From NCBI GenBank assembly GCA_022793335.1, contig JAAWCQ010000003.1:1-64000 (forward strand): 64,000 nt of DNA, in the 5' to 3' direction. A program made the position numbers and the translations under genes. Below the pieces are notes generated by a model, which was given only the letters and a program-made list of their open reading frames with translations, was not told where the DNA came from and did no database searches. Positions 7,205-64,000 of this stretch are shown piece by piece; within the stretch, counting starts at the first letter, position 1, and each line of letters starts with the position of its first letter. This stretch comes from Clostridia bacterium (lineage in GTDB: Bacteria; Bacillota; Clostridia; Christensenellales; UBA1242).

Positions 7205-7233
7205 TTGCATTTTTATTGCATTTATGATATAAT
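7205..7233 (+). promoter_or_regulatory. SigA promoter of the OLE-like RNA
   Basis: TTGCAT (7205-7210), 17-bp spacer ending in TATGA, TATAAT (7228-7233). The predicted start is near 7240. Confidence 0.7.
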
Positions 7234-7239
7234 CTAATA

Positions 7240-7832
7240 ATAGAAGGTGCAGTATTCTAGTCAGAAGGCTTTTTTAGGAAGGCGAAGTAATAGCGTCGAC
7301 GGGCATATCTGTGAAGTTTCTGGTGCTGGCTTTGGTTGCCCAAACTGGGGCTGGTGCTGGGAGTTAAGAATTTTGGGCGAATTGTAATGGCATACAGTCC
7401 ACGACCCAATTTTCGTGGAGACCTTAATGGGTGGAAGTCAACTCTTCTACTATTGAGGAAGAACCTGCATTGCGATAAAAGTTGTGTGCAGCGTAGCCTG
7501 CCTTGAGTGAATGGCTTGGGATTAAGCAAAAGCGTTTTCATATTATCGGCCAATAATTTGATAACTGCTGCTTATGAAATGGCATTTGCAAAATAGGCTA
7601 ATAAAATTGTTTTCTGTCAAGGAAAACTTCTAGACTGTTGCTAAGTGCTGGCTGGATAGGGATTATAGTGCGACCTAAGTGGCGATTCGGTGTAATGTCT
7701 TGCTTAATAGGAAACTGCTCGAAGCGGTGACGCTTGAGTGCGAGAATGGGAAATCCGACCGAACCTATGGCGCAAGGTTTACTTAACCAGCTGCCTTCTA
7801 AGTATAACAGCATTTGCTGTTATACTTTTTTT
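7240..7832 (+). ncRNA. ole: Large structured RNA, probable OLE RNA
   Basis: A ~590-nt stretch between a good promoter and a strong terminator, clearly more GC-rich than its AT-rich flanks, with no credible ribosome site or open reading frame. Size, own promoter and position just upstream of an OapA-like membrane protein gene match OLE (ornate, large, extremophilic) RNA of Firmicutes, which forms a ribonucleoprotein at the cell membrane with OapA and is linked to stress tolerance. I could not fold it or compare it with the OLE covariance model. It lacks the tRNA-like ends of tmRNA and the GAGGAAAGTCC core of RNase P RNA. ROOL RNA (similar size) is the main alternative; the downstream oapA favours OLE. 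Confidence 0.75.
7800..7832 (+). terminator. Terminator of the OLE-like RNA
   Basis: A perfect 13-bp stem, AAGTATAACAGCA (7800-7812) with its complement (7815-7827), then seven T residues. Confidence 0.9.
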
Positions 7833-8169: not shown

Positions 8170-8970
8170 ATGAAAATTAAAAAAGAACGAAAACCCAAAC
8201 CGTCGAAGTTTGCAGTGTGGTGGAAATGGCCGCTTATTGTTTTGGCACTATCTTTCTTCTTATCGCTTGCTTTCGGTATTGCGAGTGAGATTGCACTTTC
8301 AGGTGCAGGCATAGCTGTCAGTGTGGTTGTCATTTTGGTGTTTATTTTGATTTCAATCTTTGCAGATATGATTGGTGTTGCAATTACTGCTGCGAATTTT
8401 GAGCCTTTTAGAGCTATGGCTGCAAGAAAGGTAAGGGGGGCAAAAGAGTCAATCAGACTTCTTGAAAACAAAGAAAAAGTTGCAAGTGTTGCAGCCGATG
8501 TTATTGGTGACATTTGTGGAATTTTGTCGGGCGCAGCTGGTGCGACAATCACGGCAGCAGTTATACTTCATGTATCAAACAATTTTCTTATGGTATTCAT
8601 TGCATCACTTGTTTCAGCAGTTATTGCGGCGCTTACAATTTTCGGTAAGGCATATTTTAAAAAGTATGCAATGCTGCACTCAGAAAAGGTCATAATCCTT
8701 CTTGGAAAGTTTTTAAGTCTGTTTCATCCGCAAAAGAAAAATAAAGATAATTTAGATAAAAAAGCGAAAAAAGACGATAAAAACGCGAAAAAACATGCAA
8801 AAAACGATAATTCTGTCAAAAAATCGGATGATTTGAATGAAAATGTTGATAATAAAGAAACCGAGGAATTGAAAGAAACAGATATCGAATTGAAGGCTGA
8901 AGATGAGAAAATAGCAGAAGAAAACGACAATAATGAAGTTGAAAATAAGGATAACTCAGTAGAAAATTAA
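8170..8970 (+). CDS. oapA: OLE-associated membrane protein OapA
   Basis: A 266-residue integral membrane protein with about four hydrophobic segments between residues 18 and 180. Between them lies the conserved stretch around FADMIGVAITAANFEPFRAM, followed by AARKVRGAKESIRLLENK and DVIGDICGILSGAAGA, which I recognise as the OapA family (related to the DUF21 domain of CNNM/CorC magnesium proteins). OapA binds OLE RNA and places it at the membrane. Residues ~190-266 form a charged tail, first lysine-rich, then glutamate-rich, that I do not remember in described OapA proteins. A GAGGT ribosome site precedes the ATG. It has its own promoter and terminator, about 340 bp after the RNA. Confidence 0.8.
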   Translation: MKIKKERKPKPSKFAVWWKWPLIVLALSFFLSLAFGIASEIALSGAGIAVSVVVILVFILISIFADMIGVAITAANFEPFRAMAARKVRGAKESIRLLENKEKVASVAADVIGDICGILSGAAGATITAAVILHVSNNFLMVFIASLVSAVIAALTIFGKAYFKKYAMLHSEKVIILLGKFLSLFHPQKKNKDNLDKKAKKDDKNAKKHAKNDNSVKKSDDLNENVDNKETEELKETDIELKAEDEKIAEENDNNEVENKDNSVEN

Positions 8971-11983: not shown

Positions 11984-12010
11984 TTGACAATAAATCGGGG
12001 GGGGTAAAAT
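11984..12010 (+). promoter_or_regulatory. Promoter with G8 tract in the spacer, upstream of the InlB-repeat gene
   Basis: TTGACA (11984-11989), then ATAAATC, eight G residues (11997-12004) and TAAAAT (12005-12010). The spacer is 15 bp, two short of the optimum, so slippage of the G tract would change promoter strength. The same layout with nine G residues precedes the gene at 62649. Confidence 0.7.
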
Positions 12011-12104: not shown

Positions 12105-15100
12105 ATGAAGATTAAAAACAGTGTTAAATTGATTTATATTATCCTGATATGTTTTTTCTTGATTGGCGGAATTGCACTCTTAGCTTGTCCAAACTTATAT
12201 GATAAGTCGTTGGATAATACTATTGCCCGCACAAATGATTTTACTATTCAAATTTATACAAGATATTATAAAGATGGTGATGTGACAGAATATACAGCTT
12301 GGAATGGCGGTGCAAGCACAGCACCGGTAAATAATGGAAATGTTTTTTCCATATATTGGTATGAAAATGAAGGGTCAACTGCAAAAAATTTTGGCTCTGA
12401 TTATTATGCGAATGGGGGAAAGCGTGGAAACAGCTCATCTGCTACAAATATCAGCACTTTTTATATGCGTTATACTTATGGCGGAATTGGTGTAAGAAGG
12501 CATGGTCGAATTTATATCAACCATAACCCTGAAGTAAAAGCTGGCGAGAGTGTCTATGTTGGGGCAAGATTTAACGATATAAATGCCGACTCTTCTAGAA
12601 GTAACAGTACAAGTTTTTATAGATATGAAGACAGAAAGTCACATACACAGATGTTTACAACAAGTCCTCCTTCTGGATGGCAGTCTGGCGAACAAATGTC
12701 GGGTACGGTTTATATTTCTTATCGCTATTGTTATGGATTAAAATTTAATGGAAATGGAAATTCTGGCGGAACAGTGCCTTCTGATATGACCTATTTGTCA
12801 GGGGTTGATTTTTATATGCCATCTTCAAATCTTGAAAGAGCAGGTTATACATTCAAAGGTTGGGCGAGAAACTCGAATGCCACCGAGGCGGAATTTTCTC
12901 CTGGGAGTAGGTATAGCGATGGTAATGAGGCGCTTCGAGGCTCACCAACTACCACTCTTTATGCGGTTTGGCAACCAAACACTTACAGAGTGACAGCCTA
13001 TGCAAACAATGGGGAAATAAGTGAAACAAGAGGCTGGAGTGGAAGCGGCAACTCTGCTTATAAAGATGTAGTTTATAAAACAACTTATGGCACTATGCCT
13101 TCAGCTACACGATATGGATATTATTTGACAGGTTGGTATACTTCGTCGACAGGTGGTAGTCAAATTACAGATTATAATGTTGTTGATATAACAAACAATT
13201 TGGATGTATACGCGCATTGGACACCATATGATTATACAATAACAGCTTTTGCAAACGGAGGAGTCATTCCGTCAACAAGTGGTTGGAGCGGGAGTGGGGT
13301 AAGTGTTAGTAAAAATGTAAATTTTGACAATTCTTATGGAACGCTTCCGACGCCAACCCGAACAGGTTATACCTTTGCAGGCTGGTATACATCATCGTCT
13401 GGCGGCACAAAAGTGACCTCATCGACGATTTTGTCTACTACAGGAAATAAATCCATTCATGCACACTGGACTGTAAACAGTTATAGGGTGACGGCAAACC
13501 TTGGCGGAGGTTATGTTGAAGCTTATGGAAGTTTCAACGGCAACAATGGAATTGTGTCAAAAGCTATAAATTACAACTCAACCTATGGCACGCTTCCAAC
13601 AGTAAAACGCTCAGGTTATTATTTTACAGGTTGGTATACAGCGCCAAGTGGTGGAAGCAAAGTTGAAAGCACGACGGTTATGGCAACCGCTAGTGCAAGC
13701 ACAATCTATGCACGCTGGTCTCAAAATATATACAAAGTGGTATTAAACTACAACGGCGGTACATACAGTGGTAGCGGAAGTCGAAGTGAAGATTTCACTT
13801 ATGGAACGAGTAAGACTTTCCCAGTGCCAATAAAAACTGGATATGATCTCACTATGTGGAATTGCAGCTTTTCAACAAGTGAAAGTTTTAATTGTGACAG
13901 CAATGGAAATTTGACAATAACGGTACCATACTTGGGTGAGAATAACAACAGTGTGACCTTCACAGCTCAATGGCAGGCAAAGACATACACACTGACAGCG
14001 AACGCAAACGGCGGAAGTATTCCAACAACAAGTGGTTGGAGTGGAAGCGGAGCAAGTGCGAGCAAAACGATAACCTTTGATTCTACATACGGCACTCTTC
14101 CAACTCCAACCCGAACAGGTCATACCTTTGCAGGCTGGTATACAGCGGCAAGTAGTGGAGAAGCTGTGAGTGCAACAACAGGAGTAACAACAACAGGAAA
14201 CAGAACAATCTATGCACACTGGACAGTCAACAGCTATACACTTACAGCAGATGCGAACATGACAGGAGCAACATTTACAAGTGTGCCAAATGGCTGGAGT
14301 GGAAGTGGTACAACAAGGACAAGAAGCGTAATTTACAATACAAGTTATGGCATCCTTCCAACACCAGCAAAAGAGGGATATATCTTCTTAGGCTGGTATA
14401 CAGCAGCAAACGGAGGCTCAAGCGTATACAGCACGACTACAATGGGTGCAGGGAATACTAGAATCTATGCACACTGGGAAAGGACATGGGCGGCAGACGC
14501 TGTGGGGATAGACTTAAGCGGACTAGGCGGAAGCGGAACAACAAGTGACCCTTATGTAATCGACAGCGCAACAGATATAGCCTTCTTAGCATTGCAGACA
14601 AGTAAAAATGTCACCTTTGATGGAAAATATTTCAAGCAGACCACAAACATAGACCTAGAAGGAAAGACATGGCTGCCAATAGGAAATGCAACAACAGCAT
14701 TCCAAGGCAGCTATGATGGAAATGGATACTTGATAACAAATATCACAACAATAGCCAATGGCCAATTGAATTATTCAAATGTAGGCCTGTTTGGTTATAC
14801 AAGAAACGCAACGATAAAGAATGTGAATGTCATATCGGGCAATATTCAAGGCTATGATTATGTAGGCTCGATAGTCGGCAACCTCAACAACGGAAGCGTA
14901 GAAAACTGCCGAAGCGGAGCAACAGTGACAGGGCATAACTATGTAGGAATGATAGGCTACGGAGTAAGCACCTCAATCTTGTCAAGCTATAACTATGGAA
15001 GCGTAAGCGGAAATGACTATGTAGGAGGAATCCTTGGCCGTAATGGCGGAACAGGCACTCGCCTAGAAAACTGCTATATGAAGGGCAGTGTGACTGCAAC

Positions 15101-15500
15101 TGCTTCAGAAGCAAACTGTGGAGGAATACTCGGTCAAACAACAAGCGGAATAACCTTGCAATCTTGCGGCTTTATCGGCAGCGTAACAGGAGGAAGTAAT
15201 ACAGGTCTTCTTACAGGCAACTTAAACGGCGGAAGCGTAATCGACTGCTTTGCAAACTCTACAACAGACTATGCCTTTACAAAAGGAAGCGGAATAGTAA
15301 AGAGCAGTTTGTATATACAAAACAAGGCTAGCAACAACCCAGTAAAGAAATATGTTACCAATAACAGCGAAACAAACCCATTTGCAAACTGGACAGTGGC
15401 AGTAAACAATCAGCCATTGCCAAAAGGCTTTTCATGGATAAGCAGCAGTGGAAGCAACTTAACAATGGAAAAACTTGAAAAACTTGGCTATACAGCATAG
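12105..15500 (+). CDS. Secreted InlB B-repeat / GLUG-type surface protein
   Basis: A 1131-residue exported protein behind a near-perfect AAGGAGGTG ribosome site. Residues ~10-32 form a signal peptide or membrane anchor. Residues ~205-795 hold seven InlB B-repeat (Listeria-Bacteroides) units, each with a GYTFAGWYT-like core and ending in YAHW or similar. Residues ~800-1060 resemble GLUG repeats (VGLFGYTRNATIKNV, VGGILG). No LPxTG or S-layer anchor is seen. The C-terminus (VKKYV, PLPKGF, W) resembles that of the frameshifted protein ending at 57337. Such proteins usually act in adhesion or the cell envelope. From about base 13960 codon use changes and ATT almost disappears. Confidence 0.85.
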   Translation: MKIKNSVKLIYIILICFFLIGGIALLACPNLYDKSLDNTIARTNDFTIQIYTRYYKDGDVTEYTAWNGGASTAPVNNGNVFSIYWYENEGSTAKNFGSDYYANGGKRGNSSSATNISTFYMRYTYGGIGVRRHGRIYINHNPEVKAGESVYVGARFNDINADSSRSNSTSFYRYEDRKSHTQMFTTSPPSGWQSGEQMSGTVYISYRYCYGLKFNGNGNSGGTVPSDMTYLSGVDFYMPSSNLERAGYTFKGWARNSNATEAEFSPGSRYSDGNEALRGSPTTTLYAVWQPNTYRVTAYANNGEISETRGWSGSGNSAYKDVVYKTTYGTMPSATRYGYYLTGWYTSSTGGSQITDYNVVDITNNLDVYAHWTPYDYTITAFANGGVIPSTSGWSGSGVSVSKNVNFDNSYGTLPTPTRTGYTFAGWYTSSSGGTKVTSSTILSTTGNKSIHAHWTVNSYRVTANLGGGYVEAYGSFNGNNGIVSKAINYNSTYGTLPTVKRSGYYFTGWYTAPSGGSKVESTTVMATASASTIYARWSQNIYKVVLNYNGGTYSGSGSRSEDFTYGTSKTFPVPIKTGYDLTMWNCSFSTSESFNCDSNGNLTITVPYLGENNNSVTFTAQWQAKTYTLTANANGGSIPTTSGWSGSGASASKTITFDSTYGTLPTPTRTGHTFAGWYTAASSGEAVSATTGVTTTGNRTIYAHWTVNSYTLTADANMTGATFTSVPNGWSGSGTTRTRSVIYNTSYGILPTPAKEGYIFLGWYTAANGGSSVYSTTTMGAGNTRIYAHWERTWAADAVGIDLSGLGGSGTTSDPYVIDSATDIAFLALQTSKNVTFDGKYFKQTTNIDLEGKTWLPIGNATTAFQGSYDGNGYLITNITTIANGQLNYSNVGLFGYTRNATIKNVNVISGNIQGYDYVGSIVGNLNNGSVENCRSGATVTGHNYVGMIGYGVSTSILSSYNYGSVSGNDYVGGILGRNGGTGTRLENCYMKGSVTATASEANCGGILGQTTSGITLQSCGFIGSVTGGSNTGLLTGNLNGGSVIDCFANSTTDYAFTKGSGIVKSSLYIQNKASNNPVKKYVTNNSETNPFANWTVAVNNQPLPKGFSWISSSGSNLTMEKLEKLGYTA

Positions 15501-52077: not shown

Positions 52078-54084
52078 ATGGGAAGAAGAGTAAAACTTGC
52101 AGTAATCTTTATGCTGGTTTTGGGTGTAGTAGGCTTTGGAATTGGTCTCGCTGTTGGATACTTTATGAACAGCAACGACATTTCAGCTGCGCTTAAAAGC
52201 CCAGCAGTTATTGTTTGTGCCATTGTTGGTGCGCTTGTTGGACTGGGCATGGGCTTATTCAGCAGAAGAAAAATCAATGCTGGAAGCAATGTTGGTACAA
52301 CTGCCGATGGCAAAGAAACGGATGTAAACTTTGACTCAAAGTTTATCACACCAGAACAGATGAAAAAGGACGGCGAACTTCTTTATTCGACTTGGAACAA
52401 CCTTCCAAACATGAAAAAGACAGGTTTTGTTTTCAGAATGAAGCAGACAGGCGGTCACTTTGAGGTGAACATGAAGCCAGAAACTCACGCATTGGTGCTT
52501 GGTACCACCGGTGTAGGTAAAACACAGCTTCTTGCAAACCCTACAATCAGAATTTTGGCGCACTCTGGTCAAAAGCCAAGTATGGTTATGACAGACCCTA
52601 AGGGCGAACTTTACAACGACAATGCTGCCGTTCTTGAAAAAGAAGGGTATAAGTGTATTGTGCTCAACTTAAACGACCCATACGCTTCTTCTATGTGGAA
52701 TCCAATGGAAATTGCCTTCCGCACCTATCAAAGAGCGGGCAAACTTACCGAAGAGGTAAAAAAATATACAGATGTAAAACCTGAAGATGTCAAGCACAAG
52801 AGATTTGGGCAAGATGTTCTTCAAGGTGTGGAATATGGCAATGTTTGGTATGGCTTTGAAGGCAAAGCGTTTCCAACTAAAGAGCTTTTACAGCAAGAGC
52901 TTGAATCAAGAAGAATCCAGCTTGAAGATGAAGCAAAGTCAGACATTAAAAACATTGGTCTCTCTCTTATTCCAGATGACCCAAACAGCAAAGACCCAAC
53001 TTGGTCAAATGGTTGCCGTGACTTTATTACAGGTATTATGTACGCCATGCTTGAAGACTCAAGAGATCCTCGTCTTGGCATGACAATTGACAAATTTAAT
53101 TTCTTCAACCTTTACAAAATTTGTATGAGGCGTGACCCAGCTGGTGACAGAGAAAGTGCGCTTAAAACACTTACAACTTACGCCGACGGCAGAGATAAGG
53201 TAAGAGGCAATGTTTATCAGCTTATGAGTGGTGTCTGCCTTGCCAGTGGTGTAACCCAAAGATCTTTCCTTTCAACTCTTTCTTCTTCGATTGGTAAGAC
53301 CCTTGGTGATGAAGGTATCTTGTTCCTTACAAGCGGTACAGATATTGACTTTACAAAAATTCCTGAAGAGCCAACTGCATTCTTTATCAGAATCCCTGAC
53401 CATAAGACAGAAAGACACCCACTTGGTGTGCTTTGTATCAGTCAGCTTTATAAGGTGCTTGTCGATGTTGCAAATAAGACAGGCGGAACATTAAAACGTC
53501 CAGTTTATTTCATTCTTGATGAATTCGGAAACATGCCAGCCGTGCCAAACTTTGGTACTATGGTTACCGTATCGCGTTCAAGAAAAATCTTCTTTGAAAT
53601 TATCTTGCAGTCATATAAGCAGCTTGATATTAAATATGGGCAGGATGAGGCGCAAAACATTCGCGGAAACTTCCAGATGGAAGTGTTCTTAGGCTCTGAA
53701 GACCCATCGACAATTCAAGCCTTCTCAGAAGCCTGCGGTGAAACCACTGTTTTCCACGAGGAGATTTCTCGTTCTCGTCAGACAAACAGAGATATTGCAA
53801 CGGGTGGTGAAAATATTACAACATCTACTCAGCGTACAAGAAAACCTCTTCTTGATAAGCAAGAGCTTCGTCAGCTTGAGAGATGGACAATTATTGCAAA
53901 GATTTTCAGAAAGAGTATTATGAAAGATGTTATGACACCTTTCTTCCAAACAAAATGTATGGAAAAACTCAAAAAGCCAGACCCAATGGCACTTTCAAAA
54001 CAGCTTAATATTGATGAAATCTTCTATGATATTGACAGAAGAAACGCAATAGTTATGAAGCCAAGAAATCAATATGATGATTAA
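52078..54084 (+). CDS. VirD4/TraG-like coupling ATPase, stand-alone
   Basis: A 668-residue protein with two N-terminal membrane helices (about 7-28 and 40-62) and a cytosolic hexameric ATPase domain: Walker A GTTGVGKT at 142-149, DPKGELY, Walker B FILDEFGNM (D481-E482) and the QSYKQLDIKYG stretch typical of T4SS coupling proteins. Such ATPases pump DNA or protein into a type IV channel. No relaxase, VirB4 or other secretion gene is in the window. Codon use is strongly biased to C- and T-ending codons (TTC, ACC, GGT, CTT) as in highly expressed genes, which is unusual for a transfer gene. An AAGGAG site precedes the ATG. Confidence 0.85.
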   Translation: MGRRVKLAVIFMLVLGVVGFGIGLAVGYFMNSNDISAALKSPAVIVCAIVGALVGLGMGLFSRRKINAGSNVGTTADGKETDVNFDSKFITPEQMKKDGELLYSTWNNLPNMKKTGFVFRMKQTGGHFEVNMKPETHALVLGTTGVGKTQLLANPTIRILAHSGQKPSMVMTDPKGELYNDNAAVLEKEGYKCIVLNLNDPYASSMWNPMEIAFRTYQRAGKLTEEVKKYTDVKPEDVKHKRFGQDVLQGVEYGNVWYGFEGKAFPTKELLQQELESRRIQLEDEAKSDIKNIGLSLIPDDPNSKDPTWSNGCRDFITGIMYAMLEDSRDPRLGMTIDKFNFFNLYKICMRRDPAGDRESALKTLTTYADGRDKVRGNVYQLMSGVCLASGVTQRSFLSTLSSSIGKTLGDEGILFLTSGTDIDFTKIPEEPTAFFIRIPDHKTERHPLGVLCISQLYKVLVDVANKTGGTLKRPVYFILDEFGNMPAVPNFGTMVTVSRSRKIFFEIILQSYKQLDIKYGQDEAQNIRGNFQMEVFLGSEDPSTIQAFSEACGETTVFHEEISRSRQTNRDIATGGENITTSTQRTRKPLLDKQELRQLERWTIIAKIFRKSIMKDVMTPFFQTKCMEKLKKPDPMALSKQLNIDEIFYDIDRRNAIVMKPRNQYDD

Positions 54085-54312: not shown

Positions 54313-57300
54313 ATGAAAAAGAATTTAAACTTTATAGTATTATCTTTCATTGCAATATTTTTGTGCCTCATGGGGATATTCACAATATCTGGAATGGGAA
54401 AGTTTTTTTATGATAAAAATGTTAAAATAAGCGAAAATTCTGTCAGTGCTGCAAATTACACTTTAAAAGTGGCAGGGCCAAGGCTTTATGCCTCAACAAG
54501 CGCTCCATCATCAAATAGAATAAGTGTAAAAGATATATCTTCAAGCGACCAAGAAAAAGTGTATATCAATCGACCAAGCATGTATCTCTATTCGGACGAT
54601 TCTTATGATGAAATAGTACACAGTTTGCCCCATAATCTGTCTCTTAATTCTACCCGTGATTATTATCCTATTTCATTAAGTTTTTATCTTTCATCTTCAA
54701 GTGTAGTAAAATTTGCAGGCTGGTATGAAAACAATAGTGATTATGGTTGGTCTAAATTAAGCTCAGAGACATATTGGAGAATGTCGGAATCTGATGTAAA
54801 CAATTATTCAAATTCGGCCTCTTTTGACGAAGAAATAATTATTACACCATTGTTTTACTCGGTGTCAAGTGGTGTGACTCTCACCTTTGATAAGCAAGGT
54901 GGAACGGGTGGCACATCAAGCAAACGAGTAAGTTATGGGATGAGCATGTCTTCAATAACCTGTCCTACTAAAACTGGACATACATTTTTAGGCTATAACT
55001 CTCGAGCTGATGGCAGAGGCGATGATTATTTCAGCAGCAGTGGTACTGCATTAAAAGTTGCACCGCCATCTATGACTCTTTATGCACAGTGGAGAGCTCA
55101 AACTTGTTCGGTAAGTGCTTATACAAATGGAGGCACTCTTGTTTCTGCAAATGGTTGGAATCAAATTGCAAGTTCTATTACAAAAAATATAGCCTATGGC
55201 AATCCTTTAGGAAGTTTTCCAATTGTGTCAAGGACTGGTTATGTCTTGAAAGGTTGGTTTACCGAAGCGAGTGGAGGTACAGAGGTTACTGTGTCAACAA
55301 CTTTTGGGCTTGAGACGCTTGCTTACATTTATGCTCAATGGGAAAAAGGTAGTTATGCGGTCACTGCAAATGTCAATGGAGGCAAGCTGGGCTCTAACTT
55401 AAATGGTTGGACTAAGAATGGCGACAATGCGAAGAAAAATATTACATATTTGACCAATTATGGAAATTTTCCGCAGGTTACAAGGGATGGTTTTCATTTA
55501 AAAGGCTGGTATTTTGCTTCAAGTGGAGGCACCGAGGTGACGTCAAGCACTGTTATGGATAAGGGGGCGGCACACTCGATTTATGCACAGTGGCTCCAAA
55601 ATGAGTATACTGTTGTATTTGATTTTTAATGGCGGCCTAAATTCTTATAATTCCTCCTCTTCTTCAACAAAACTGAAGTTTGAGCAAGGGTATTCTTTTC
55701 CGATTCCAAAGAAGGAAGGTTTCACTTTGACGGGCTGGCGGTGCAGTTTCAATAATATAATTTATCCGACCAATTCTTCCGATCAAAGTTTATATTTAAG
55801 CATGCCAAATCTTGGCAGTAATGGAGTCAATGCAACCTTTTTTGCGCAGTGGCGTGCAAATAGTTATAGTGTTTGTTTCAACGGCAATGGAGGAAAAGGC
55901 TCCATGCCAAATCAAAGCTTTATTTACAAAAACTCCTCTGAACAGGGAAATGCTCTTTCTTCAAACAGCTTTACAAAAGTGGGCTATTCTTTTGTGGGCT
56001 GGAATACTGATTTAAGTGCGAAAGAGCCTCTTTATTATGATAAGCAGATTGTCAAAAACTTGACCTCAAAAGAGGGCGAAATAATAAATCTTTATGCTAT
56101 ATGGGAAATAAATAATTATAAACTGAAACTTGACGCTAAAGGTGGAAGTTTTCCTATAAACATGAATGGTTGGGAAATTGAAAATGGAATGGCTGTTAAA
56201 GATATTGAATATAATTCAGCTTTTGGATATTTGCCAAAGCCGACAAAGAGAGGGCAAATTTTTCTTGGCTGGTTTGATGTGAATGGGCTTATTGCAGGTG
56301 AGAATATGATAATCAAGGCAGAAGATGTGACTTTAACTGCAGAATGGCAAGACAGTTGGGCAAATTTATCAAATGTTCAGCAACCTAAAAATGAAGGTGG
56401 AATTTATCTCATTTCAAATGCTCAAGAGCTGGCTTGGCTTGCAAGTGAATGCGAAATCAATAATTCAAGATTTCAAGTTAAACAAACAGCAAACATTGAT
56501 TTAAGTGATAATACATGGAAGCCAATTGGCAGTGAGGATTTTGCTTTTAAAGGCTGTTTTGATGGGCAGGGTTTTAAAATAGAAGGAATGAAGGTTATCA
56601 ATGGCTATTATGATAATTGTCAAGGTCTATTCGGGAATGTTGAAGGTGAGAAAATAGATAAGCCTGTCATTATTAAAAATGTCAGACTATTTGGCAAAGT
56701 AATTGGAAATGAAGAGGTTGCTGCGATAGTTGGCAGAGCAGAAAATGCAGTTATAAAGGGCTCTTCCGCGTTTGTTGAAATTCAAGCATCGGCAAAAGTG
56801 GGAGGTGTTGTTGGCCGTGCCAAAGATAATGTTTATGTCGAAAACTGCTATTGTTATGGAAGCATTTCGGCGACAGGTGATAAGGTTGGTGGGCTGATTG
56901 GTGAAGTTTCGGGAATAAATTTTGAAATGAAAAACTGCATGTCAAAGATGAGTTTAATTTCTTCAAATCATTGTGGTGGGCTGATAGGCTATGCTGCTCA
57001 AAACTTTAAACTTTCAGCTTGTTGTTTTGAGGGAAATATGGAAGTAGCAAGTGGCAATCGAGGCTTGTTTGTTGGCTATTCTGTTTTAAGTGGAACGATA
57101 GAAAACTGCTTCTCAAAATTGTTGAATAATGCAGATGGTTTAGCTGGTCAATATTATGGAGAAGCGACGGTTTTGAATTGCTTATTTGAGTTTGATGGCG
57201 TTAAAAAATATGTTGGAGAAGATTTTTCACAGTGGATAATGCTTGAAGATGGAATGCCTTTGCCACGAGCACTTATATGGAGTGGCAGCACTGAAGTCGA

Positions 57301-57337
57301 ATTTAATTTAAGTGAGAGTGGTTTTTCAAAAGCTTAA
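54313..57337 (+). pseudogene. InlB B-repeat surface protein, interrupted by a +1 frameshift
   Basis: Frame 1 (54313-55629, 438 residues) and the overlapping frame to 57337 together encode one ~1008-residue protein like the one at 12105. Frame 1 starts with a signal peptide (about 5-28) and holds four InlB units (GHTFLGYNSRADG, GYVLKGWFTEASGG, GFHLKGWYFASSGG). Frame 2 continues with FNGGLNSYN, further InlB units and GLUG-like repeats (GGLIGEVSG, GGLIGYA) and a C-terminus with KKYV and PLPRAL. Removing one T from the T5 run at 55623-55627 rejoins the frames exactly (VVFD-FNGG). It could be a recent mutation, a slippage switch or a sequencing error. No anchor motif is seen. The start has a GAGGGG site. 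Confidence 0.8.
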
Positions 57338-60806: not shown

Positions 60807-62207
60807 ATGAGTGAAGTAAAAAAGAATGAAGGCAGAAGTGCCTTAAAAAGTGAAAAGAAAGAAAACAAAAAGAAAAATGGAGCGATAATCGGGCTTGCAA
60901 TTGCGACCTCTGTGCTTGCACTTTCGACTATCGGCCTTGGAGTTGGTTTGGGATTTTCTCAACATGCAGCAATGAGTTATCGCACAGACCTTGAAAATGT
61001 CTATAATCAAAATTTTTACAATCTGCTTGACAGCGTAAACAATCTTGAAAACAAACTTTCAAAGACCCTTTCGTCTGGCAGTGGAACAACTTATCAAAGA
61101 AAAATGCTGTTGGAGGCATCAAAGAATGCAAGTGAGGCAGAGATATCTGTGTCTCAACTTCCTCTTTCACAATCTGAAATTCAAGAGACAATTAAGCTGG
61201 TCAACCAAATATCTGGTTATACCTCAACTCTTGCTGAAAAGATGGTCAATGGTGGAACGCTTACTGACCAAGAGAGGACAACGCTTGAAAACATTCATCA
61301 AAGTGTAATCAATTTGAAATTGCAACTCAATGATTTTGAAAAGAGACTCAATGGTGGTTATTCAATTTTGGATGGAAGAATGAATGTTGATAATGATGTC
61401 AACAGCTTTACAAGATCGCTTACCTCGCTTAAGAACAATGATGTTGAATATCCAACCATGATTTATGACGGACCTTTCTCTGACTCGGTGACAAACAGCA
61501 AGGTCAAAGGTCTTTATGGTGAAGTTGTCACAAAATCTGAGGCTGGCGAAAATATCAAGAAACATTTCAAAAGTGTTGCTGATATTGAGTTTGAAGGGGA
61601 GACTAAGGGCAGATTTGAGACTTACAACTTCAGAATTAGAAACGCTGACAATGAAAAACTTTATGTTCAAGTCACTAAGATTGGCGGGCATATCTTGACA
61701 GTGAGCGGTGCTGGCAGAGATGGACAAAACAGCATTGATATGGATGCTGCAAAAGATATCGCAAAGAATTTTGCCCAGGAAAACGGTGTTGAAAACCCTG
61801 AGGTTGTTTGGAGTGACAGCATTGAAAATGATGTTTATCTTAATATCGCACCTAAGTCAAGCGGCATAATTCTTTATCCAGACCTTGTCAAAGTAAAAAT
61901 CAATCTTACAAGCGGCACTGTTGTAGGCTATGATGCAACAACCTACTTTACAAATCATACAAAACGAAGCCTTACAAGCGGAACATTGTCTCAATCTGAT
62001 GCAAGAGGAAAGGTGCCTTCAACTTTTGAAATTGTGCAAAGCCGAGTTGTGCTTTCTCCACTTGACTACAATCGTGAAGTGGTCTGCATTGAAGTTGAAG
62101 CAGACAACGATGATGGCACTTATTACTTCTATTTCAATGCTGCAAATGGAAATCTTGAAAATGTGCTTAAAGTAATCGAGACTGATGATGGCAATCTTTT
62201 AATGTAA
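60807..62207 (+). CDS. ypeB: Germination protein YpeB
   Basis: A 466-residue protein needed for SleB stability in spores. It has a lysine-rich N-terminus, a membrane anchor (about 26-48), a helical region with SYRTDLENVYNQNFYNLLDS, and a C-terminal part with repeated PepSY-like domains (about 260-460). It follows sleB by 12 bp with an AAAGGGGG-type ribosome site, completing the spoIIR-sleB-ypeB operon, and ends in a terminator. Confidence 0.9.
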   Translation: MSEVKKNEGRSALKSEKKENKKKNGAIIGLAIATSVLALSTIGLGVGLGFSQHAAMSYRTDLENVYNQNFYNLLDSVNNLENKLSKTLSSGSGTTYQRKMLLEASKNASEAEISVSQLPLSQSEIQETIKLVNQISGYTSTLAEKMVNGGTLTDQERTTLENIHQSVINLKLQLNDFEKRLNGGYSILDGRMNVDNDVNSFTRSLTSLKNNDVEYPTMIYDGPFSDSVTNSKVKGLYGEVVTKSEAGENIKKHFKSVADIEFEGETKGRFETYNFRIRNADNEKLYVQVTKIGGHILTVSGAGRDGQNSIDMDAAKDIAKNFAQENGVENPEVVWSDSIENDVYLNIAPKSSGIILYPDLVKVKINLTSGTVVGYDATTYFTNHTKRSLTSGTLSQSDARGKVPSTFEIVQSRVVLSPLDYNREVVCIEVEADNDDGTYYFYFNAANGNLENVLKVIETDDGNLLM

Positions 62208-62246: not shown

Positions 62247-62377
62247 TTTGATGAAATTTTTAAATATGGCAGTTGCTTTTTGAAAAATAAAATATATTAA
62301 AATATTAAATTAAACAATTAAATAAAAATAAAAATAGATAATCAATGTCGAATTTTGCACAATTTTTCCACATTTAC

Positions 62378-62405
62378 TTGACAATCTGTCGGGGGGGGGT
62401 AAAAT
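62378..62405 (+). promoter_or_regulatory. Promoter with G9 tract in the spacer, upstream of the glycine-rich surface gene
   Basis: TTGACA (62378-62383), ATCTGTC, nine G residues (62391-62399), TAAAAT (62400-62405). The spacer is 16 bp. Sequence around the tract (TTGACAAT, TC before the G run, TAAAAT after it) matches the promoter at 11984, which has eight G. Confidence 0.7.
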
Positions 62406-62648
62406 AGAAATATAGAATAAAATGTTTTTAAATATAAATTTAAGTGCTGAGAAAGCTTAGTTTTTTATTATTAGCATTAAAAGAAGCCTCTTGATTTTTT
62501 AAAAAAGTCAGAATTAAAGAAAAATTTTCTAGTTAAGAAATAATACTACCTTAGTTTTAAAGTTGGGAAAATCAATAAAAGTCAATAAGCTGAAATAAGA
62601 AAATTTAAGAAGTAATATCGTATAAAAATATAAAAAAAGGAGGTTTTT
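62406..62648 (+). other. 5' leader of the glycine-rich surface gene
   Basis: About 240 bp between promoter and start codon. No reading frame is supported and I see no clear terminator; the end carries the AAGGAGG ribosome site. Confidence 0.4.
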
Positions 62649-64000
62649 ATGGCAAAATTTATCAAAAAAGATAAAAATAATATAAATTTGTCCAAGACGG
62701 ACTTTGCAAAAATTTGTCTTTTTTGTTTGCTAAGCTGCCTCGCCTTTTTTATTTTATACATTTCAACTGTTTTTTCATATAAAGAAACTGACAATAAAAA
62801 TGTAGCCGATGCAGGCACTGGTTTTACTAATGCTCGAGGTCTAAAAGACACATATTATGAGAGACTTATCTTTACTTCAGGCACAGTTGTCAAGGTAATC
62901 AACAATGTCAATTTATTATATGGGGCGTCTGTGCAGGGTACAGTGGTTTTGTATATACCAAAGAATATTACCTTAACAGTGACGGGCACTACAGGCAATG
63001 CAGGCATAACTTTACATTCTGGCAGCAAGTTGATAGTGGTTGGAGAAGGCACATTGAATGCTACTGGTGGTAATGCAGGCAGAGGTTTAAACGGGCAGCC
63101 GGGAAATAACGGCTATCTTTCGATAAGTTTAAATAGTTACCAAGGCGGAAACGGCGGAAATGGTGGAAATGGTGGCGTGGGCGCTGGTGCTGGAATTGGT
63201 GGCGATGGTGGTGCTGGCGGTCTAGGCGGCAGCGGCGGAATATGCGAAATGAAAGATTGTGAATATGGCGACCAATATGACGCGCAGGGCGGTAATGGCT
63301 ATAACGGCAAGCATGGTGGTTATGGCTTTTCGATGGGCACATTGTATGTTATTGGTGGAATGACTGTTAATGCGAAGGCTGGCAATTCACTCACAAACCT
63401 TAGTGCTGGAAGTGGAGGTAGTGCTGGCTCTGGTGCAAATGATTCTGGCTCGGGCTGGAGAAATGATTACGCTGCCGGCGGCGGTGGCGGAGGCGGCGGA
63501 GGTGGCTCTGGATCCATAAATGCCTCTGCGATTGGTGGCGGCGCACCTGGCGGCGGGGGCGGCGGAGGCGGCGGTGCCGGTGGCACTTATACCTCAAAAA
63601 AAGGTCACAAATATAGCGGCGGAGCTAGTGGCTCGGGCGGCAAGGGATATTTTTATGGAGGCAGTGGAACCTCAGCTACATACGATAGTTATTGTGATGA
63701 TGTGTTGCATCAAGCTTCTGGTGGCGCTGGTGGTGAACGAGGAGAAGTAGGCAATGCTGGCGTGTTATATTCAGATGCTTCAACTGTTTCTGGAAGGTAT
63801 AGGAATTATTCAACCAATGGTGAGCTTTCTGAAATAAATTACACAGCAAACTTTGATGCTGCTGGTGGAAGTTTTAAATATTCGTATGATAAGACTTGCA
63901 ATGTTTGGCTTGGAAAGACTATGACCACTGTAAATTTACCTACTAAAGAGGGCTTTAAATTTAAAGGTTATTATACAAGCTCTGGCGGAGGTGGTACTCA
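62649..64000 (+). CDS. Glycine-rich secreted surface protein with InlB repeat, 3' end outside window
   Basis: The first ~450 residues are visible. A lysine-rich start is followed by a signal or anchor helix (about 20-42), a beta-rich region (60-135, with GNAGITLHSGSKLIVVGEGT), then a glycine-rich region (about 135-385) with runs of GGNGG and poly-glycine, and at the edge the start of an InlB B-repeat (LPTKEGFKFKGYYTSSGGGG). It looks like the third surface protein of the same class as those at 12105 and 54313. A strong AAGGAGG site selects the ATG at 62649. Expression may depend on the G9 promoter. The glycine codons make this stretch locally GC-rich. Confidence 0.8.
   Translation, partial: MAKFIKKDKNNINLSKTDFAKICLFCLLSCLAFFILYISTVFSYKETDNKNVADAGTGFTNARGLKDTYYERLIFTSGTVVKVINNVNLLYGASVQGTVVLYIPKNITLTVTGTTGNAGITLHSGSKLIVVGEGTLNATGGNAGRGLNGQPGNNGYLSISLNSYQGGNGGNGGNGGVGAGAGIGGDGGAGGLGGSGGICEMKDCEYGDQYDAQGGNGYNGKHGGYGFSMGTLYVIGGMTVNAKAGNSLTNLSAGSGGSAGSGANDSGSGWRNDYAAGGGGGGGGGGSGSINASAIGGGAPGGGGGGGGGAGGTYTSKKGHKYSGGASGSGGKGYFYGGSGTSATYDSYCDDVLHQASGGAGGERGEVGNAGVLYSDASTVSGRYRNYSTNGELSEINYTANFDAAGGSFKYSYDKTCNVWLGKTMTTVNLPTKEGFKFKGYYTSSGGGGT

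Follow-up and report, generated by a model that had tools for sequence, protein, structure and literature searches.

The best-known cases of programmed surface variation through simple repeats come from host-restricted pathogens and mycoplasmas, and the vlp genes of Mycoplasma hyorhinis, which are clustered, carry a poly-A tract. Like the genes considered here, the vlp genes are surface genes, and insertions and deletions in their -35/-10 spacer turn transcription on and off (PMC2268961, in the part available). A poly-G tract in the spacer, with transcription dependent on the spacing, is likewise described for porA of Neisseria meningitidis, which loses transcription when the spacing of 17 is shortened (available part of PMC7864442; the available part of PMC5084427 refers to van der Ende 1995 for this promoter). 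In Treponema pallidum, poly-G tracts are likewise located in the promoters of several surface genes (tp0126 and the tpr genes). The tract of tp0126 is positioned between the -35 and -10 boxes, with an optimum at 17, and the tprL tracts contain 7-11 Gs, mostly 9 (same part of PMC7864442). Not every homopolymer in a promoter is a switch: in Mycoplasma agalactiae, the T tract found in the vpma promoter plays no part, according to the available part of PMC2268961. Finally, phase variation of a surface repertoire has, as here, been deduced from metagenomic sequence for the BspA-like proteins of Candidatus Mycoplasma girerdii (PMC5476646, in the part available).

The promoter described here is located in the window, the whole stretch of 64,000 nucleotides that was analysed, which lies within contig C12 of a 1.4-Mb assembly of 17 contigs (G000). 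Judged from its sequence and from those of related genomes, this gut-type bacterium and its close relatives probably switch surface proteins by gaining and losing single Gs.

The G-tract promoter at 62378 and its gene

The promoter occupies positions 62378-62405 of the + strand, where TTGACA, ATCTGTC, nine Gs and TAAAAT are read in this order (TTGACAATCTGTC-G9-TAAAAT). The features of this site, of a first copy of the promoter and of the related genes in the window are as follows.

62378..62383, + strand: -35 box TTGACA (from the sequence)
62384..62390, + strand: ATCTGTC, the left part of the spacer (from the sequence)
62391..62399, + strand: G9 tract within the -35/-10 spacer, which is 16 bp in total (from the sequence; equivalent position in 17 promoters of the genome)
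62400..62405, + strand: -10 box TAAAAT (from the sequence; shared by 14 of the 17 tract promoters)
62638..62643, + strand: AGGAGG, a likely ribosome binding site (read from the sequence)
62649..64000, running past the window end, + strand: 5' part of the surface gene predicted to be switched (ORF)
11984..12010, + strand: first copy of the putative switch, with G8 at 11997-12004 and a spacer of 15 bp (pattern match)
12105..15500, + strand: 1131-aa paralogue behind the first copy, with seven PF09479 stretches (ORF, Pfam, profile search)
54313..57337, + strand: distant family member that lacks a G tract and is split between overlapping frames, 54313-55629 and 55583-57337 (ORF, profile search)

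The 62378 site is the best promoter-like match in its kilobase, with 11 of 12 consensus bases and a spacer of 16. It ends 243 nt before the gene (249 nt when counted from the end of the tract), and its upstream neighbour is a sporulation-type YpeB gene (60807-62207). An Rfam scan matched no RNA element at the site or in the leader. Elsewhere in the window, a full-length OLE RNA is located at 7228-7813 on the + strand (RF01071, 405 bits, E 1.5e-115), followed by the gene of a 266-aa protein with a hydrophobic start (8170-8970).

The gene at 62649 encodes 1131 aa in the full contig. The protein is composed of a hydrophobic N-terminal segment, a glycine-rich part, four InlB-type repeats (PF09479) and a GLUG-like C-terminal module. 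The whole protein matches Pfam PF09479 with an E value of 4.2e-39, and the part encoded within the window alone reaches 23 bits, below the 27-bit cut-off.

The pattern TTGACA-N3..9-G7-N0..6-TAAAAT has two matches in the window, at 62378-62405 and 11984-12010. A chance origin of the two sites was rejected, with 100 dinucleotide shuffles giving a mean of 0.00 matches and a largest count of 0. The common frame that an earlier note on this DNA had described is present at both sites, and consists of TTGACAAT, AAA or CTG, TC, G8 or G9, and TAAAAT. The same note had named tract length as the only difference in architecture between them. The tracts do differ (G8 versus G9), and the three middle bases vary as well (AAA versus CTG). 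It had also placed the sites before two unlinked surface genes. Both genes are of surface type, but they are members of one paralogous family and therefore do not represent two independent gene families.

G tracts and the surface-protein family in the genome

There are 23 G tracts of at least seven bases in the genome, and 17 of them are positioned between a -35 and a -10 box. The remaining six comprise one C9 tract behind TTGACA, three tracts within ORFs, and two unassigned tracts. The exact form, TTGACA..G7+..TAAAAT, has 14 matches in the genome and 0 in the backwards control, and a C is found directly before the tract in all 14. The other three tract promoters have TAGAAT, TATACT and TATAAT as their -10 boxes. 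In general, the promoter reads TTGAC(A/T), a stretch of 6-9 bases with C as the last, G8-11, and TAnnnT, with nine Gs in 13 of the 17 tracts. This is broader than the strict frame of the earlier note, TTGACAAT-N3-TC, which only 6 of the 17 tract promoters fit.

The tract promoters are nearly restricted to one paralogous InlB-type family, as 15 of the 17 precede a large ORF of this family. One of the other two is found before an ABC ATPase gene, which has an additional non-G promoter with 17-bp spacing just upstream; the second lies before the gene of a 92-aa membrane protein, followed by a pyruvate phosphate dikinase-like ORF (both named by eye). With 17 of the 23 long tracts embedded in promoters and 15 of these 17 before surface-type paralogues, the placement of the motif is non-random, in agreement with the earlier note.

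Several G or C tracts are located outside this set. At C10:127408 (L078), a C9 tract on the other strand lies directly behind TTGACA and is followed by TATCCT, with a 17-bp spacer. The downstream protein (905 aa) has a hydrophobic start and DUF4832, DUF4874 and DUF4988 domains, and the site is a possible mirror form of the G-tract switch. The G9 tracts within ORFs (C9:11962, C15:14850 and C1:6822) are in frame at nine Gs; one belongs to a NUDIX-like gene, and another lies close to the beginning of an AMP-ligase-like gene (by eye). These three tracts could be translational switches.

Fourteen proteins of the family were extracted. In the fifteenth (C2:35671), the 5' coding part is in another frame than the rest. 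All 91 pairs of the 14 proteins match, with a median local identity of 37%, and 13 of the 14 pass the hydrophobicity cut. PF09479 scores above its curated cut-off in all eight proteins scanned from the family of 15. The GLUG model (PF07581) stays below its cut-off in one of these eight (18.1 versus 20.5 bits) and finds no match in the other seven; the term 'GLUG-like' denotes a resemblance only.

The C-terminal 200 residues of 12 family proteins were aligned (alignment A1), with 18 invariant columns. A search of the genome with the A1 profile finds 15 loci above 190 bits, corresponding to 12 complete genes plus three 3' halves located at contig ends, and five more distant genes at 90-122 bits. 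Three 5' halves at other contig ends match the three 3' halves in number and presumably pair with them. If so paired, all 15 close members have a tract, compared to none of the five distant members, where 15 of 15 is partly by construction, as A1 was built from 12 tract-linked proteins and its ranking favours tract-linked genes. The A1 profile search of the genome found no close member without a tract.

The distant member at 54313 is split between two overlapping frames, and therefore looks broken or assembly-shifted. It is adjoined by the gene of a type IV secretion coupling protein of the TraG type (52078-54084, + strand). A further distant fragment, at C17:1-1700 (L255), is located directly behind the end of an rRNA gene, which we take from a motif to be the 3' end of 16S rRNA. 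This placement is perhaps the result of a rearrangement or an assembly error, and the member on C17 may be without a promoter region of its own.

In the 80 nt upstream of the -35 box, the median pairwise identity among the 17 promoters is 0.522, compared to 0.543 for shuffled sequence. In the 80 nt downstream of the -10 box, it is 0.539, compared to 0.547. The flanks are thus no more alike than shuffles, which indicates that the 28-bp core has been kept while the surrounding DNA diverged. Confinement of the conservation to this core argues for selection. Together with the 15 of 17 tract promoters before one surface family, it supports the selected, regulon-wide switch that the earlier note had proposed.

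Relatives, spacer length and tract length

The motif recurs in relatives, with 20 of the 61 genomes searched (own genome included) carrying it and 16-24 distinct sites in each of the three genomes of the genus. Long G tracts are embedded in promoters in 24 of 25 cases in relative G032 and in 17 of 19 in relative G008. The bases to the left of the tract vary between species and within a genome, while TTGACA, the tract and the -10 box stay. All backwards controls for the searches of the own genome and of the relatives within the order gave 0. At the level of the order, at least one site is present in 77 of 396 sampled genomes (own included). In the rest of the phylum, 397 genomes were sampled, of which six contain the motif, at one or two sites; the control pattern has one match in each of two genomes outside the order, and these six may therefore be due to chance. 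Several single-copy matches in relatives are located before ordinary genes.

A total of 69 sites was fetched from relatives, including 23 of 24 in G032, 12 of 17 in G008, 8 of 9 in G055 and 2 of 5 in G025. For nine of the 69, where the contig continues for 3 to 473 bases, no downstream ORF was obtained. The downstream ORF was taken from the longest start within 900 nt, an assignment that may be wrong in places. Only 2 of the 60 downstream ORFs belong to the family of the own genome (one in G008, one in G055). Among ten relatives' proteins scanned against Pfam, three from G032 have BspA-type leucine-rich repeats, and DUF285, GLUG and Big_2 are found in one protein each (from G014, G008 and G055, respectively); four of the ten have no Pfam match above cut-off. 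A further Pfam scan of proteins of G032 and G025, which covered L263 (one of these four) again and added L280 and L312, gave no match either. Many of the downstream proteins have a short hydrophobic N-terminus in common. BLAST places 37 of the 60 in one cluster, perhaps partly via repeats.

As a check, the earlier note had suggested looking for an enrichment of signal-peptide proteins. In relatives, 46 of the 60 downstream ORFs have a strongly hydrophobic start, compared to 13 of 48 ORFs of the window. The 60 include many paralogues, and the background is taken from the own genome alone. The remaining 14 downstream ORFs do not have such a start.

In G008, G014 and G032, the contig ends a few hundred bases or less away from many tract promoters, which points to repeats immediately downstream of them.

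There is an offset in the spacing of the tract promoters. Among the 47 ordinary TTGACA..TAAAAT sites of the own genome, which have no G tract, 22 have a spacer of 17 bp, and this is a clear peak. The spacers of its tract promoters straddle this peak, at 15 bp (6 promoters), 16 bp (8), 17 bp (2) and 18 bp (1). Similarly, 50 of 87 ordinary sites in G032 (with TAWAAT as the -10 box, among 100 of 105 matches listed) and 31 of 49 in G008 (same -10 box, among 50 of 122 matches listed) are at 17 bp. The tract promoters have spacers of 15 bp (4), 16 bp (16) and 17 bp (4) in G032, and of 15 bp (4), 16 bp (9), 17 bp (3) and 19 bp (1) in G008. The patterns used for these three distributions permitted spacers of up to 20-22 bp. 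Fisher tests of the share at 17 bp, tract versus ordinary, give 0.018 for the own genome, 0.0004 for G032 and 0.0017 for G008 (the latter two among the matches listed), with the caveat that the ordinary sites include chance matches and the tract promoters of one genome are not independent. The commonest spacer of the tract promoters is 16 bp in each of the three genomes, as would also be expected if the optimum for G-rich spacers were 16 bp.

Tract length differs between promoters with identical flanking frames (one assembly per species). Such sets have 9/9/11 and 8/9 Gs in the own genome, 7/8/9 and 8/9 in G008, 7/8 in G032 (two frames), 9/10 in G014 and 8/9 in G028. Identical frames with equal tract lengths are found as well (9/9/9 in the own genome and 9/9 in G025). 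The tracts in G032 have 7 or 8 Gs only, and its four 17-bp sites contain extra base(s) beside the tract (three sites) or a longer left spacer (one site), but never a longer tract. At G032:C1:211496, a copy of this species' promoter has an interrupted tract (GGGGGAGG) and a 17-bp spacer, and looks as a locked copy would. A test of left-spacer versus tract-length variance over the 147 order-level sites listed was apparently highly significant. It was discarded, because the pattern limits the spacer to 18 bp and thereby forces a negative correlation.

MutS is present in the own genome and in 36 of the 37 genomes searched (own included). Slippage is therefore not raised here by the loss of MutS, and loss of mismatch repair was rejected as a cause as far as this protein is concerned.

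Proposed switch, alternatives and known systems

We consider it likely, from the sequence comparisons, that phase-variable promoters, dispersed over the genome and governed by spacer length, serve the whole family, and that most of them are OFF, at a distance of one or two Gs from ON. Each would be a sigma-70 type promoter with a slippage-prone G tract inside the -35/-10 spacer. Replication slippage would add or remove single Gs and shift the spacer by 1 bp, such that a spacer of about 17 bp would be strong (ON), and one of 15-16 or 18-19 bp weak or silent (OFF). The promoters predicted to be ON in the assembly are C4:255 (G11) and C15:37663 (G10), both at 17 bp; for the copy at 62378 (G9, 16 bp), a single additional G is predicted to give the ON state. 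As each close family member has its own dispersed copy, only a small part of the family would be present on a cell at a time and would change at random, with few of the roughly 15 large repeat proteins displayed and changes at the rate of slippage. The observed spacer distribution is as expected for a repertoire in which a few members are ON and most lack one or two bases. The 17-bp sites of G032, none of which has a longer tract, speak against this reading, as does the possible optimum of 16 bp for G-rich spacers. We infer slippage between cells, an ON state at 17 bp, display at the surface, and a role in adhesion or in evasion of immunity or phages.

The conserved core could also have other functions. 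The G tract, the flanking C and TAAAAT may together be the operator of a dedicated regulator for the surface family, with tract length mattering little. This would explain why the core alone is conserved at dispersed sites and why a C precedes the tract at each of the 14 exact sites. However, otherwise identical promoters differ in tract length, the bases left of the tract vary between and within species while TTGACA, the tract and the -10 box are constant, and relatives place the same design before other families. An operator is therefore unlikely. It is also improbable that the tracts are a form of static tuning, in which stable lengths each set a constant promoter strength for their gene. 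A tuned set needs no tract of a kind that is otherwise rare in the genome (17 of the 23 G7+ tracts are in promoters), and the poly-G tracts in Treponema pallidum promoters vary within isolates (available part of PMC7864442), even though the presence of MutS, the nine Gs in 13 of 17 tracts and the exclusive use of 7 and 8 Gs in G032 are all consistent with stable lengths.

Recent duplication of whole genes together with their upstream regions is a very unlikely source of the likeness among the promoters. The genes are paralogues, with 91 of 91 pairs of 14 proteins matching, but the similarity of the flanks on both sides of the 28-bp core does not exceed that of shuffled sequence, and the five distant members have no tract. 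Invertible promoters are known in gut bacteria, and the 62378 site is bracketed by a 12-nt AT-only pair (62323-62334 and 62462-62473, 92% complementary). On the other hand, this pair is of low complexity and no pair brackets the 11984 site, and we give almost no credence to switching by DNA inversion in place of slippage.

If spacer-length switching by slippage is correct, it would constitute a family-wide variation system in small-genome, MutS-bearing, gut-type Clostridia. The spacer offset would predict the ON members in each assembly, and the tract lengths are open to a read-based test of surface variation. A more tentative proposal, which we hold to be possible but somewhat doubtful, is that the switch is portable. 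The 28-bp core (-35 box, left spacer, G tract and -10 box) would then have been kept or spread within this uncultured clostridial order independently of the genes, being near-uniform within G032 and within G008, and would have been rewired between adhesin families across species, with most copies one or two bases short and few of 15-24 proteins present per cell. If true, this portable switch would provide genome-wide diversification of adhesins and antigens in gut Clostridia without a dedicated recombinase.

The class of mechanism, as in porA, tp0126 and vlp, is already known. There are differences, however, between these systems and the one described here. porA is one gene of a Gram-negative pathogen, compared to 15 paralogues in one Clostridia-type genome. 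In Treponema pallidum, the permissive tracts of tprE, G and J have at most eight Gs, unlike in the switch proposed here, and the tprL start site is located four bases behind the tract, also unlike here; the available part of this account gives no family-wide promoter core of the kind found here (PMC7864442). Compared to vlp, the tract is poly-G, the genes are dispersed over many contigs, and the design is also found before other families in sister species. The repeats of Candidatus Mycoplasma girerdii are mostly dinucleotides with predicted frameshifts of the reading frame, unlike the promoter tracts here (available part of PMC5476646). A literature search that covered few of the subscription journals found no published poly-G promoter switching for the host group. 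Within this coverage, what looks new is the host group, the presence of a tract at all close members of a paralogue family that is dispersed, and the recurrence of the design in sister species upstream of further surface families.
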